Source: Natronorubrum halophilum | Lineage (GTDB): Archaea > Halobacteriota > Halobacteria > Halobacteriales > Natrialbaceae | Length of the DNA stretch: 64,000 nt | Direction: 5' to 3' | Assembly: GCF_003670115.1 (NCBI RefSeq) | Contig: NZ_QQTY01000002.1 | Coordinates: forward strand, 930,001 to 994,000 | In this document: one piece after another, positions 57,014 through 64,000 of the stretch | Position numbering within the stretch: the first letter of the stretch is position 1 | How the letters are laid out: each line of letters begins with the position of its first letter | Notes under the pieces: model-generated | Seen by the model: only the letters and a program-made list of their open reading frames with translations | Databases searched by the model: none | Told to the model about the DNA's origin: nothing | Program-made: the position numbers and the translations under genes

Positions 57014-57562
57014 TTACGGCGTCCGAACGTACTCGAGAAAGGCGAATCCCTCGCGTTCGTCGCGGGAGACCTCCTCGAACGCGTCCCGATCCCACTCGGG
57101 AAAGTACGCGTCGCCGTCGGGATCGTCGTCGATTTCGGTCACGATCAGCCGATCGATCGCGGGCAGGAACTGTTCGTAGACGGTCGCGCCGCCGGCGACG
57201 AAAACGCGGTCGACGTCGCCGTGGTTCTCGCGCGCTGCCGTCTCCGCCCGCTCGAGTGCCTCCTCGAGACTGCCCGCGACGACCACGTTTTCACGGGTAT
57301 CGAGATCCTGGCCCGTCAACACGACTGTCGTTCGTCCCGGAAGCGGTTCGCCGAGCGCCTCGAGAATGCCCTCGTAGGTGACCCGACCCATGATCAGGGG
57401 GTGATCCATCGTCGTCTCCTTGAAGTGTGCGAGATCTTCCGGAACGTGCCACGGCATGTCGCCGTCCTTGCCGATGACGCCGTTTTCGGCGACGGCGACG
57501 ATCCCGACGAGTTCGCGGTCGGTCTCGAGGGCCGGTTCGTCGGTCGATCCGTCGCCGCTCAT
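57014..57562 (-). CDS. folA: Dihydrofolate reductase
   Basis: A 182-residue DHFR that regenerates tetrahydrofolate after thymidylate synthesis. LVGIVAVAENGVIGKDGDMPWHVPEDLAHFKETTMDHPLIMGRVTYEGI holds the catalytic Asp/Glu region and NADPH contacts, with VFVAGGATVYEQFLP later. About 15 acidic residues precede the core. Its ATG overlaps the thyA stop (ATGA) so folA is translated right after thyA. Confidence 0.95.
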   Translation of the reverse strand: MSGDGSTDEPALETDRELVGIVAVAENGVIGKDGDMPWHVPEDLAHFKETTMDHPLIMGRVTYEGILEALGEPLPGRTTVVLTGQDLDTRENVVVAGSLEEALERAETAARENHGDVDRVFVAGGATVYEQFLPAIDRLIVTEIDDDPDGDAYFPEWDRDAFEEVSRDEREGFAFLEYVRTP

Positions 57563-58578
57563 TCGGCCACCGAGAACTCGAGTCCATCGTGGGAGTCGTA
57601 CGCCTCAAGCGCGACGTCGTCGTACGAGAGGGTGTCGATCGTCGCCCCGTCCGCGACCTCGAGCGTCGGTCGCTCGAGGGGCTCCCGGGACAGTTGCTCG
57701 AGCAGTCCGGGGACGTGATCGAACCGTTCGTCGCCCTCGGCTTCGGCGGGCGCTTCGGACTCGAGCCACTCGCGAACGTCGAGGTAGTCCTCCCGCTCGT
57801 CGGCGTCGACCAGCCGGGACTGGAGGGCCCGGAGGTTGTCGGCGTACCACTCCCCGCGCGCGCCGCGACCGCAGTAGACGTGCGTGTCGACGACGGTGTG
57901 TGCGAACGTCCCGGGTTCGAAGCCGGTCTGTTGAGCGATGACCTTCGTCAGGAGCGCGTAGGCCGCGATGTTGAACGGAATGCCGAGCGCCGTATCGCCC
58001 GAGCGCTGGGTGAGATGGCAGTTCAGGCGGTCGCCTTGCACGTTGAAGACGAACGAGTAGTGACACGGCGGCAACGTCGAGACGGCCGCGTTGGCCGGAT
58101 GCCAGGCGTTGACGACGAGTCGACGGGAGTTCGGACTGTCCGAGAGCGTGTCGACGACGTACTGCAGTTGATCGAACGTGCGGCGGCCGTCCGCTTCCTC
58201 GGTGACCCACCGGTGGGTCTCGTCGGGCCAGGATTCGCCCTCGAGTTGCGCCTCGTCGTCCGGAATCGGGTACCGCCGCCAGAACCGACCGTAGGCGGTG
58301 TCGAGTCGTCCCTCCTCGTCGGCCCACGCGTCCCAGATTTTGGTCTCGTCGCGCAGCGTTCGAATGTGTTCCTCGCCGGAGAGATACCAGCACATCTCGT
58401 GGAGCATCGAGTTCCAGCGGTAGCCGTCCATCCGTTTGGTCGTCAGCAGGGGATACCCCTCCTGTAAGTCGACCTCGTAGTGCTCGCTAAACGACGAAAT
58501 CGTGTCGACGCCGGTCCGGTTTGGCTTGTACGTGCCCTCGGAGAGGACCGCGTCGACGAGCTCGAGGTACTGTCGCAT
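57559..58578 (-). CDS. thyA: Thymidylate synthase
   Basis: ThyA methylates dUMP to dTMP with methylene-tetrahydrofolate. The 339-residue protein contains PNRTGVDTISSFS, the nucleophile motif ALPPCHYSF-like STLPPCHYSFVFNVQGDRLNCHLTQRSGDTALGIPFNIAAYALL with the catalytic Cys and the Asn that reads dUMP, and HVYCGRGARGEWY. The ATG before RQYLELVDAV is used; six codons upstream in frame are not supported. Coupled to folA in a thyA-folA pair, a common arrangement. Confidence 0.95.
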   Translation of the reverse strand: MRQYLELVDAVLSEGTYKPNRTGVDTISSFSEHYEVDLQEGYPLLTTKRMDGYRWNSMLHEMCWYLSGEEHIRTLRDETKIWDAWADEEGRLDTAYGRFWRRYPIPDDEAQLEGESWPDETHRWVTEEADGRRTFDQLQYVVDTLSDSPNSRRLVVNAWHPANAAVSTLPPCHYSFVFNVQGDRLNCHLTQRSGDTALGIPFNIAAYALLTKVIAQQTGFEPGTFAHTVVDTHVYCGRGARGEWYADNLRALQSRLVDADEREDYLDVREWLESEAPAEAEGDERFDHVPGLLEQLSREPLERPTLEVADGATIDTLSYDDVALEAYDSHDGLEFSVAE

Positions 58579-58650
58579 TACTCCCTGTTGGATCAACGGG
58601 GTATAATATGCACCGATACCCGAAGTACGCGACCGGCGGGCGGGCGTCGG

Positions 58651-60077: not shown

Positions 60078-61715
60078 ATGACCGCTCGAGACGGCTCGCG
60101 TCTTCTCGCTCTCCCACCGTCGGCGCTCGCCGACCGGCCCGTCGCGACGCTCGAGGACCTCGACCGGACGCTCGACGCCGACGGCCTCTGGGTGCTCGGT
60201 CCGTCTCGAGACCCGCAGGCCTTCGCGCGCGCTCGCGGGCTGTTCGACGCGTCGGCGTTCCATCCGCCGCTCGAGACCGGCGACGACGGACCGATTTCTC
60301 GGCAAGCGATCGGCAGGACGGCCGACGGAGACGCCCTCGAAATCGCCGTCGCTCAGGGGCTTCCCTCGCTGCGGACGACGCCGAATGCCGTCTCGAACGA
60401 GCTCCGTGAAAACGAGCCGACCATCACCGCACTCGTCTGCGACGACGTCACGACGACCGTTCGGCCCACCGCTCTCGAGACCGCGCTCGAGGGCGCGGGC
60501 ACGCTCGCCAGCGCACTCCCGTCCGGTCGGGTCACGACCGTCCTGACGGGCGGCGAACCGGCCGGGTACGACGAACTGTGGCACCTCGACGCGGACACTG
60601 GTGCGGTTCGGGCCGTCGACCACGACCTGCTCGGCGGCGTCGAACCGCTCGCCGACGACTGCGTCTCGGTCCGAATCCAGGGCGCAGGCCCGGTCGAGGG
60701 CTACAGCCGGCGGCAGTCGATCGCGAGCCTGACGCTCACCGGCGACGGTATCGAGCGCGTCGACACCCACGAGATCACCGACTTCGGTCTCGAGGCCGTC
60801 TCCGGAATCGGCCCGAAAACGGCCGAACGACTCGCCGAGCGCGGGGTGACGACACGCCCGGAACTCCTCGAGACGGACCTCGAGACGCTGGCCGACCTCC
60901 CCCACGTCGGCCGCGAACGGGCCCGCACGATGCACCGGCACGCGAGGGTGCTCGAGACCGGCGAACCGAGACGGCTTACCGACGACTCCCTCCCCGGCGA
61001 GAACTGGTCGACGCCGCCGCTCTGTCTCGATATCGAGACCGACGGGCTCTCGCCGACGATCATCTGGCAGGTGGGCATCTACGACCCCGCGACGGACGAG
61101 TACCGCGCGTTCGTCGAGCGCGCCGACCCGACCGACCCGGGGCCGGTGCTCGAGGCCTTCTGCGACTGGCTGCTGGGCGTCCACCCCGACCGCGCCCTGC
61201 TCACGTGGAACGGCTGGCGCTTCGACTACCGCCACCTCGGGTCCTTCATCGCCCGCCACCTTCCCTACTACGTCGACGAGTGGGAGTCGATCCCCAAATT
61301 CGACCTGTATCTCTGGGCCGCGAGCAACGAGAACGCGTTGCTCCCCGGGCGGACGAACGAACTCGGGACCGTCTCGGACGCGCTCGGTTACGAGAGCGCG
61401 GGAACCGGACTCGACGGCGCGCGAACCGCGGCGGCCTACCAGCGGTTCATGCGGACGGGTGCACCGCTCGAGTGGGGCCGTCACGAGGCCTACTGCGAGG
61501 ACGATTGTCGAGCGCTGTGGCACGTCTACGAGCGGCTCCGGGACGCACCACGGGCCGAGTCCTGGACGGATTCGAACCGCAGTGACTCGAGTCGGGTAGC
61601 TGCGGACATCCCAGACACGGAGCCGTCAAACGAGGAGTCGACGAGTCGGCGAACGAACCGGCGTACCTCGCGTGAGACGACCACCGGCGAACAGACTGGA
61701 CTGAGTGATTTCTGA
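60078..61715 (+). CDS. RNase H-like 3'-5' exonuclease with HhH domain, MrfB-like
   Basis: A 546-residue protein. The C-terminal part carries a DEDD-type exonuclease: LCLDIETDG (Asp318, Glu320), TWNGWRFDYRHLG and EAYCEDDCRALW, as in the RNase_H_2 proteins YprB/MrfB. Before it (about 240-295) is a helix-hairpin-helix repeat (VSGIGPKTAERLAERGVTTRPELLETDLETLADLPHVGRERA), a DNA-binding element. Just 3 bases separate it from the helicase gene. In Bacillus the equivalent pair, MrfA/MrfB, repairs mitomycin C damage, so archaeal repair of interstrand or bulky lesions is a good inference. Confidence 0.85.
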   Translation: MTARDGSRLLALPPSALADRPVATLEDLDRTLDADGLWVLGPSRDPQAFARARGLFDASAFHPPLETGDDGPISRQAIGRTADGDALEIAVAQGLPSLRTTPNAVSNELRENEPTITALVCDDVTTTVRPTALETALEGAGTLASALPSGRVTTVLTGGEPAGYDELWHLDADTGAVRAVDHDLLGGVEPLADDCVSVRIQGAGPVEGYSRRQSIASLTLTGDGIERVDTHEITDFGLEAVSGIGPKTAERLAERGVTTRPELLETDLETLADLPHVGRERARTMHRHARVLETGEPRRLTDDSLPGENWSTPPLCLDIETDGLSPTIIWQVGIYDPATDEYRAFVERADPTDPGPVLEAFCDWLLGVHPDRALLTWNGWRFDYRHLGSFIARHLPYYVDEWESIPKFDLYLWAASNENALLPGRTNELGTVSDALGYESAGTGLDGARTAAAYQRFMRTGAPLEWGRHEAYCEDDCRALWHVYERLRDAPRAESWTDSNRSDSSRVAADIPDTEPSNEESTSRRTNRRTSRETTTGEQTGLSDF

Positions 61716-61718
61716 ACC

Positions 61719-64000
61719 ATGAGCGAACGACAATCCGACGAACGGGCCGCCGTCCCGGTCACCGGCGACGAACTGATCGAAACCTTCCCCGGGTATCGGA
61801 ACCCCGACGATATCTCGCTCCTCGAGCGTCCCGGCCAGCCCGCATCGACCGTTCCGAGCGCGGACGTGCTCCGCCCGGAACTCGCGGCCCCGCTCGAGCA
61901 CGACCTCTACACCCATCAGGCCGACGCCCTCGAGGCGCTCGCGCGCGAGGAACACGTCTGCGTCGCGACGAGCACCTCCTCCGGGAAGACCCGGATCTAC
62001 GCGCTCCAAATAGCGCGACACTACCTCGAGGCGACGGCTCGAGGCGACGCGTCCACCGCGTACCTGCTCTATCCGACGAAGGCGCTCTCGCGGGATCAAG
62101 AGCGGAGTCTGAACGATCTCTACGACGATCTGGGGCTCGAGATCACGGTCCGAGTCTACGACGGCGATACCGAACGCGGCCGGAATCGCAAGCGGATCCG
62201 CGAGGAGGCCGACGTCATCATCACGAACTTCGCGGGCGTGAACACCTACCTGCACGACCACGACCGCTGGGCGCGATTCCTCTCGAGGTGCGAACTCGTC
62301 GTGCTCGACGAGTCCCACACGTACACGGGCGTCCACGGAATGCACGTCGCCTGGATCGTCCGTCGGCTCAAGCGCGTGCTCTCCTACTACGACGCCGATC
62401 CGCAGTACGTCCTGACGAGCGCGACGATCGGCAACCCCGGCGAGCACTCGAGCGCCCTGATCGGCGACCCCGTCACCGTCGTCGACGAGGACGGTTCCCC
62501 GGCGGGGCCGCGGGATCTGGTCCTCTGGAACCCGCCGCCGCAGGCGCACGACGATGGGGACGAACGCGACGGCTGGAACGACGGTCCGGGCGGCGAGGGC
62601 GACCGGGGTGGCGACGGGATCGGAGCGGGCGACGACCTCGCGGACGACGCCGTCGTCGAGCGGCTCCCCGCTACCGTCGAGGCCCCGCGGCTGCTCTCGC
62701 ACCTGACGTATCGGGACGCCCAAACGCTGCTGTTTACCCCCTCGAGAAAGCTCGCCGAGCTCTCGATCAAGCGGGCGTCGAAACACCGCCACGACAACCA
62801 CTACTACACGAATCCTACCCGAGGGAGCGCGATCGAACCCTACCACGCCGGTCACTCGCGGAAGAAACGCCACGGCACCGAACACCAGCTCAAGACCGGC
62901 GTTCTCGACGGCGTCGCCTCGACGAACGCCCTCGAGTTGGGGATCGATATCGGCGCGATGGACGCGACGGTCCAGCTCGGCTACCCCGGCCAACGGCAGT
63001 CGTTCTGGCAGCAGATCGGTCGCGCGGGCCGCGGTTCGAAGCGAGCCCTCTCGGTACTCGTCGCCGAACACCGCACGCTCGACCAGTACGTCGTGAACAA
63101 CCCCGACTACCTGCTCGAGAACGACGTCGAGGACGCCGTCGTCGATATCGAGAACGACGCCGTCTTCGCCCAGCACCTCCGCTGTGCGGCCGACGAACTC
63201 GCGCTCGACGAGTCGGATGCGGGGACGTTCGCCGAGCGCGACCGACTCGAGCGCGCCATCGAGATGTGGCGTCGCGCGGGTCGGTTAACGGGCGCGCTCG
63301 AGACCGGCGTCTCCTACGTCGGTCCACCGCGGCCGCAGGGGTCGATCTCGCTGTACGCGACGACGGGCGAGGAGTACGAGGTCGAACTCGCCGAGGGCGT
63401 CGACTCGTCGGAGAACCCGGAGATGGAACCGCTCGCGACGGAGCGCGTGCTGCGGGATTTCCACGAGGGCGCGGTGCGGCTCCACCAGGGTCGGCAGTAC
63501 GAGGTCACGGCCGTCGACCACCGCCCGTCGCGGCCCTCGGTGACGCTTCGCCCGACGAACGTGGAGTACTACACGCGAACGCGAACCGACGTGACCGTTC
63601 TCGACGCGGTTTCCGAGGAGTCTCGAGCGATCGGCGACTTCACGCTGCACTTCGGCCGCGGGCGAGTGCTCGTCTACCACGGCACCTACGACGAGGTCGC
63701 GATCCACGGCGGCAAGAAAAAGGCGCAGTCGATTCCGACCGAGAACCCGCCGCTGTCGATGGAGACGCAACTGTGCTGGCTCGAGGTGCCCCAGGACGTC
63801 GAGCGCGCGCTGATAGAGAAATACCGCTCTCACTCCGTGCCCGAACTTGAGGACGGGCTTGCGGAGACGGCCCATCTGGGCTACGCGGGCGGACTTCACG
63901 CCGCGGAGCACGCGACGATCGGCGTCGCACCCCTCGAGTTGATGGTTGACAAGCGCGATCTGGGCGGCCTCGCGACGCTGACGATCGACTCCCACCTCGA
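61719..64000 (+). CDS. DEAD/DEAH helicase, YprA/MrfA or Hrq1-like (incomplete at the window end)
   Basis: A helicase of which 760 residues are visible; the reading frame runs off the right edge. Walker A is TSTSSGKT (Lys90), Walker B DESH (Asp197), motif III LTSATI, motif V STNALELGIDIG and motif VI QQIGRAGRGSKR. The later region (SMETQLCWLEVP, ETAHLGYAGGLHAAEHATIGVAP) is the DUF1998-type C-terminal zinc domain start of the MrfA/Hrq1 family. An acidic insertion (about 270-300) is haloarchaeal. It lies 3 bases after the exonuclease gene, so the two form a repair operon. Confidence 0.92.
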   Translation, partial: MSERQSDERAAVPVTGDELIETFPGYRNPDDISLLERPGQPASTVPSADVLRPELAAPLEHDLYTHQADALEALAREEHVCVATSTSSGKTRIYALQIARHYLEATARGDASTAYLLYPTKALSRDQERSLNDLYDDLGLEITVRVYDGDTERGRNRKRIREEADVIITNFAGVNTYLHDHDRWARFLSRCELVVLDESHTYTGVHGMHVAWIVRRLKRVLSYYDADPQYVLTSATIGNPGEHSSALIGDPVTVVDEDGSPAGPRDLVLWNPPPQAHDDGDERDGWNDGPGGEGDRGGDGIGAGDDLADDAVVERLPATVEAPRLLSHLTYRDAQTLLFTPSRKLAELSIKRASKHRHDNHYYTNPTRGSAIEPYHAGHSRKKRHGTEHQLKTGVLDGVASTNALELGIDIGAMDATVQLGYPGQRQSFWQQIGRAGRGSKRALSVLVAEHRTLDQYVVNNPDYLLENDVEDAVVDIENDAVFAQHLRCAADELALDESDAGTFAERDRLERAIEMWRRAGRLTGALETGVSYVGPPRPQGSISLYATTGEEYEVELAEGVDSSENPEMEPLATERVLRDFHEGAVRLHQGRQYEVTAVDHRPSRPSVTLRPTNVEYYTRTRTDVTVLDAVSEESRAIGDFTLHFGRGRVLVYHGTYDEVAIHGGKKKAQSIPTENPPLSMETQLCWLEVPQDVERALIEKYRSHSVPELEDGLAETAHLGYAGGLHAAEHATIGVAPLELMVDKRDLGGLATLTIDSHL

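Follow-up and report, generated by a model that had tools for sequence, protein, structure and literature searches.

Organisation of the locus

We analysed a 64,000-nucleotide stretch of the genome of the haloarchaeon Natronorubrum halophilum (contig NZ_QQTY01000002.1, positions 930,001 to 994,000; hereafter the window), the end of which carries a gene for a DEDD-type exonuclease followed on the same strand by a gene for a YprA/MrfA-family helicase. The two products probably act together in DNA repair. The genes and the domains recognised in the exonuclease, which is built as phosphoesterase fold, helix-hairpin-helix (HHH) domain, DEDDy exonuclease, disordered linker and PCNA-interacting protein (PIP) box, are as follows:

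60078..61715, + strand: exonuclease gene, MrfB-like, 545 aa (ATG at 60078, stop TGA at 61713-61715)
60078..60785, + strand: calcineurin/Mre11-type metallophosphoesterase fold, residues 1-236 (structure comparison)
60789..60947, + strand: HHH domain, residues 238-290 (Pfam HHH_5, 2.7e-11)
61020..61538, + strand: DEDDy 3'-5' exonuclease domain, residues 315-487 (Pfam RNase_H_2, 2.5e-27; invariant residues)
61545..61691, + strand: variable linker, residues 490-538, disordered except for a short helix at 493-496 (AlphaFold pLDDT)
61692..61712, + strand: putative PIP box QTGLSDF, residues 539-545 (motif in paired relatives)
61719..64000, continuing to window-equivalent 64460, + strand: YprA/MrfA-family superfamily 2 (SF2) helicase, 913 aa (ATG at 61719)

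An alternative start of the exonuclease, GTG, lies 42 nt upstream of the ATG at 60078. Its stop codon is separated from the helicase ATG by only 3 nt (ACC). The helicase gene extends past the end of the window, and its remainder was taken from the genome (G000:C2:991719-994460). An earlier note on this DNA had described a DEDD exonuclease with an HHH domain placed 3 bases before a YprA helicase, and this was borne out by the spacing and by sequence and profile searches (RNase_H_2 and HHH_5 in the former, MZB and a 313-bit match to MrfA in the latter). That first reading did not extend to the domain at the N-terminus, the DEDDy type of the active site or the PIP box at the C-terminus.

Co-inheritance of exonuclease and helicase

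The conservation of the pair in Halobacteria could be checked in a survey of 145 genomes. Exonuclease matches numbered 65, in 59 genomes, and for 61 of them the helicase was located directly downstream on the same strand. Similarity matrices of the exonucleases and helicases from 58 pairs were correlated, with a Spearman coefficient of 0.82 against a highest value of 0.12 in 500 permutations. Judged by these sequence comparisons, the exonuclease and the helicase form a real co-inherited unit.

A phylum-level search yielded one match outside the order (E 4.5e-23), covering the exonuclease half only.

Helicase

The helicase possesses the Pfam domains DEAD (7.9e-25) and Helicase_C (6.4e-12), together with the Zn-binding MZB (DUF1998) domain of MrfA (4.1e-15; 56.7 bits vs a cut-off of 24.2), and is the sole MZB protein in the window's genome. 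Helicase motifs are intact (SGKT at 88, DESH at 197, SAT, and QIGRAGR at 432), and all four cysteines of the Zn-binding domain are present (C848, C850, C856 and C859). The winged-helix domain WHD_HRQ1 is weak, with 25.5 bits at a cut-off of 27; a plasmid relative reaches 27. The best match in PDB was Bacillus subtilis MrfA/YprA, with the runner-up at 70 bits. Compared with MrfA, the window's helicase has two acidic low-complexity insertions, at approximately residues 275-312 and 756-808.

In the helicase tree, all 58 paired helicases formed one clade (SH-aLRT 100), which excluded both the stand-alone haloarchaeal YprA-like helicases and another YprA helicase found on plasmids. The stand-alone proteins belong to the same family (about 39% identity), but have no exonuclease partner.

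C-terminal PIP box

In the AlphaFold model of the exonuclease, built from a 53-sequence alignment (pLDDT 88), confidence drops within the linker from about 67 to 37 and is below 50 across nearly all residues 506-545. It is at the very end of this disordered tail that the motif Q-x-x-L-x-[DE]-[FW] is found, in 58/58 paired exonucleases of the first set and in 126 of the 128 distinct paired exonucleases of a larger one, with 0-2 residues after it. The two motif-less proteins, from Natronorubrum thiooxidans and Halostagnicola sp. A56 (L146 and L163), are broken frames that keep the motif in another frame; true loss was rejected for both, and all 126 intact proteins have the motif.

The linker between YCxDD and the motif varies from 26 to 75 residues across relatives, the motif persists in 23 of the 24 clusters formed at 50% identity, the representative of the remaining cluster being without it, and just 0.7% of the other open reading frames of the same loci (31/4655) have it. 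On these grounds, chance or relatedness was rejected as its explanation. Two unpaired paralogues lack the motif. Four established archaeal PCNA clients encoded in the window's genome end similarly, namely FEN1 (QTGLDRWT), RNase HII (QTGLDRF), PolD DP2 (QSGIEDFM) and NreA (QSNLSAFSSTK). The exonuclease tail fits the published definition of a PIP box (PMC4929162); going by its sequence, it should be one, and is predicted to dock the exonuclease on PCNA.

NreA, a haloarchaeal mitomycin repair factor, is likewise an archaeal protein with a C-terminal PIP box, which in Haloferax volcanii is required for mitomycin repair (PMC4929162). It is, however, unrelated to the exonuclease, almost universal in archaea and without known enzymatic activity, and it acts with UvrABC in Haloferax volcanii (PMC4929162, PMC7776575).

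Exonuclease domain

The catalytic residues D318, E320, D383, D476 and Y472 are invariant. Two further residues, L324 (57/58 paired exonucleases) and F382 (58/58), sit at the same offsets as the wedge residue Leu113 and as Phe171 of MrfB (PMC11194089). Both proteins thus share the DEDD acids, the Leu of the wedge and the Phe that precedes the second Asp, and in B. subtilis MrfA-MrfB (YprA-YprB) a YprA-family MZB helicase is likewise found beside a DEDD exonuclease. Searched as a profile, the exonuclease domain had MrfB as its top PDB match (E 0.0098), with the Exo I and Exo II motifs aligned; phmmer with the single exonuclease sequence did not retrieve MrfB from PDB. In fold, the domain is closest to PolB proofreading domains (VIA Z 14.6-16.3), as was also reported for MrfB (PMC11194089). 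The MrfB structure 8un9 was not in the Foldseek and VIA lists for the whole exonuclease model, an absence that is uninformative.

N-terminal domain

Residues 1-236, modelled alone, gave a pLDDT of 92. The resulting fold resembled Rv0805 (VIA Z 10.6; 177-182 residues aligned at 3.6-4.0 Å) and Schizosaccharomyces pombe Mre11 (VIA Z 8.6), and SbcD was the top Foldseek match (E 1.5e-4). None of the metal-ligand motifs (D-x-H, GD, GN[HD], H, GH-x-H) is conserved in 31 aligned N-terminal domains, where G202 and G224 are the only invariant residues. Because these motifs are not conserved, the domain is predicted to be inactive. Since hhalign did not align it with recognisable phosphoesterase paralogues, its identity rests on fold comparison and on shared domain order.

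This order recurs in unpaired haloarchaeal phosphoesterase-HHH-RNaseH proteins (L078:7326-8765, - strand; L079:5573-7015, + strand; L137), which have a weak HHH domain and an RNase H-type exonuclease domain and are 28% identical to the paired exonuclease over these two domains. Unlike in the paired exonuclease, their phosphoesterase domain is recognised by Pfam (PF00149); our search detected no helicase partner for them, and they have no PIP box. They are possibly two-nuclease proteins. An archaeal protein from outside the order (L132; G344:C197:5960-6655), adjoining a CTP synthase-like gene, has an apparent phosphoesterase-domain end followed by a similar exonuclease domain. The TM0106 family of RecB-like nucleases (TIGR03491) likewise has an HHH followed by an RNase H-type domain. 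The exonuclease matched its profile positions 214-460 well under the cut-off (46 vs 97 bits), and the N-terminal half was unmatched.

Genomic context and mobility

Among Natrialbaceae, the clade to which the window belongs, the pair is found on the chromosome in fixed synteny, with thymidylate synthase and dihydrofolate reductase (DHFR) on one side and often purD on the other. The corresponding upstream neighbours in the window are:

57014-57562, - strand: dihydrofolate reductase
57559-58596, - strand: thymidylate synthase

The thymidylate synthase/DHFR synteny was found at 13 of 60 loci in one set, these being of the window's own clade, and at 26-27 of 80 in a second set. Outside this clade the pair is often on megaplasmids, and 46 plasmid records contain the exonuclease. 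Plasmid pHS3 of Halobacterium salinarum R1 has the pair as OE_RS12870/OE_RS12865, with the exonuclease tail QGTLADFSR. One version, carried on a plasmid island, is near-identical across haloarchaeal families (88-99% identity for the exonuclease, 94-98% for the helicase); on other plasmids the pair's neighbours are otherwise unrelated. Given the fixed chromosomal synteny and the plasmid spread, we conclude that the two genes travel together as a module and are inherited vertically as well. No phage record contained a match to the exonuclease, and viral contigs yielded just four matches, all of them short, partial and within the exonuclease domain.

Proposed mode of action and alternatives

We propose that the pair constitutes one DNA-repair machine, MrfAB-like in action and tied to the replication clamp, and estimate the probability of this at roughly 0.62. 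The proposal is supported by the conserved pairing with its correlated similarities, the single helicase clade, the MZB domain and MrfA match, the MrfB top profile match and the PIP box in 126/126 intact exonucleases. From the gene pair, its domains, intact catalytic residues, PIP motif and co-inheritance, all read from the sequences, we infer a physical complex, PCNA binding, a polarity and a substrate. The PIP box of the exonuclease would bind PCNA where it is loaded, at a fork or at a repair patch, and the HHH and inactive phosphoesterase-fold domains would hold the DNA, the helicase or both. The YprA/MrfA-type helicase, working 3'-5', would then unwind the strand that carries the damage, and the 3' end released in this way would be digested by the DEDDy domain; bulky adducts, for example from mitomycin C, would thus be cut out. 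'MrfAB-like' is probably apt for this mode of action, whereas the exonuclease departs from a standard MrfB. It is also conceivable, at somewhat below even odds, that haloarchaea arrived at an excision system with a YprA-exonuclease pairing of its own, in which an exonuclease built from an inactivated Mre11-type domain, an HHH and a PolB-like proofreading domain is recruited by PCNA and digestion of 3' ends is thereby linked to the fork, a repair design undescribed in bacteria.

In B. subtilis, MrfAB acts specifically on mitomycin C damage and does not depend on UvrABC (PMC11194089). According to Bell et al. 2025 (PMC12458937), YprA helicases with MrfB partners make up a broad repair branch widespread in prokaryotes; in the passages searched, neither PCNA nor Halobacteria comes up in this connection. 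This article was the only one that the literature search on MrfA, MrfB and archaea returned, and no paper on the haloarchaeal pair was found. As far as the pair is concerned, this agrees with the view in the earlier note that an equivalent haloarchaeal pathway is undescribed, but a mitomycin route through NreA, UvrABC and PCNA has been described. What brings B. subtilis MrfAB to lesions, and its further partners, are left open in PMC11194089. If our proposal is true, the sliding clamp is what brings the haloarchaeal pair to lesions, the archaeal PCNA interactome gains a non-core client, and NreA is joined by a second clamp-dependent factor for bulky adducts.

Several observations weigh against the proposal. 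Y472, four residues before D476, replaces the catalytic His258 of MrfB (PMC11194089), which makes the exonuclease DEDDy and not DEDDh. No tetratricopeptide repeat (TPR) was detected in the Pfam scan, and the model is nearly helix-free after residue 489. The MrfB profile match is marginal (E about 0.01), and B. subtilis MrfA scores no better against the paired helicases than against the stand-alone ones, indeed slightly lower (median 322 vs 370 bits). Moreover, the patchy distribution (59/145 genomes) and the frequent plasmid location are ill-suited to a core repair factor.

The plasmid location would be in line with a mobile anti-virus or anti-plasmid nuclease-helicase module of haloarchaeal megaplasmids, attacking replicating foreign DNA and directed to active forks by the PIP box. 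The 46 plasmid records, the near-identical version in different families and the second YprA helicase and phospholipase D (PLD)-type nuclease beside the pair on some plasmids speak for such a module, as does the defensive nature of the second YprA branch reported by Bell et al. (PMC12458937). We nevertheless consider it unlikely: the exonuclease matches no PADLOC family, no defence model comes near MrfA in its fit to the helicase, the pair is in no phage record, its neighbours on other plasmids have no relation to defence, and the Natrialbaceae pair is chromosomal with fixed thyA-DHFR synteny. Rather improbable, too, is a general fork-maintenance exonuclease-helicase that trims stalled or over-extended 3' ends with no specific role in adduct repair. 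The exonuclease would then resemble a proofreading module acting on its own, with an inactive phosphoesterase domain similar to that of B subunits. The placing of an inactive phosphoesterase fold beside an exonuclease is reminiscent of polymerase B subunits; the nearness of the exonuclease domain to PolB proofreading domains and the putative clamp tether also favour this explanation. The patchy distribution speaks against a general fork role, and the relatives MrfA and MrfB act specifically on mitomycin damage (PMC11194089).

The pair could also be a true vertical ortholog of bacterial MrfAB, serving the same UvrABC-independent mitomycin pathway, which the shared helicase family, the same paired enzyme types and the top PDB match to MrfB would suggest. 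Gene order argues otherwise, as the exonuclease gene comes first and B. subtilis has mrfA-mrfB. Unlike MrfB, the haloarchaeal exonuclease has a Tyr for His258, added phosphoesterase-fold and HHH domains, and a disordered tail with a PIP box in the absence of TPR; the helicase tree did not resolve the position of MrfA, nor did it group MrfA specifically with the paired helicases. Orthology in this strict sense thus appears distinctly unlikely. The match to the Bacillus MrfA/MrfB pair put forward in the earlier note accordingly survives as a YprA/MrfA helicase with a DEDD and HHH exonuclease, and fails on the active-site Tyr, the missing TPR, the PIP box, the extra domain and the reversed order.

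Plasmid-borne variants of the locus

In one plasmid family (L218, L252 and L255), the pair has as neighbours genes for another YprA helicase and for a PLD-type 'tyrosyl-DNA phosphodiesterase', a YprA and PLD combination reminiscent of DISARM/Dpd-type defence. The island on the Natronosalvus amylolyticus plasmid (L218:4023-18572) additionally holds Mre11- and Rad50-like genes. On a plasmid of Salinibaculum sp. KK48, a 600-bp hypothetical gene lies between exonuclease and helicase (L254:8263-8862). In Halobacterium salinarum, a second, short RNase H-like gene directly follows the helicase, on R1 pHS3 (L231:1536-2180, - strand) and also at L220:12651-13295.

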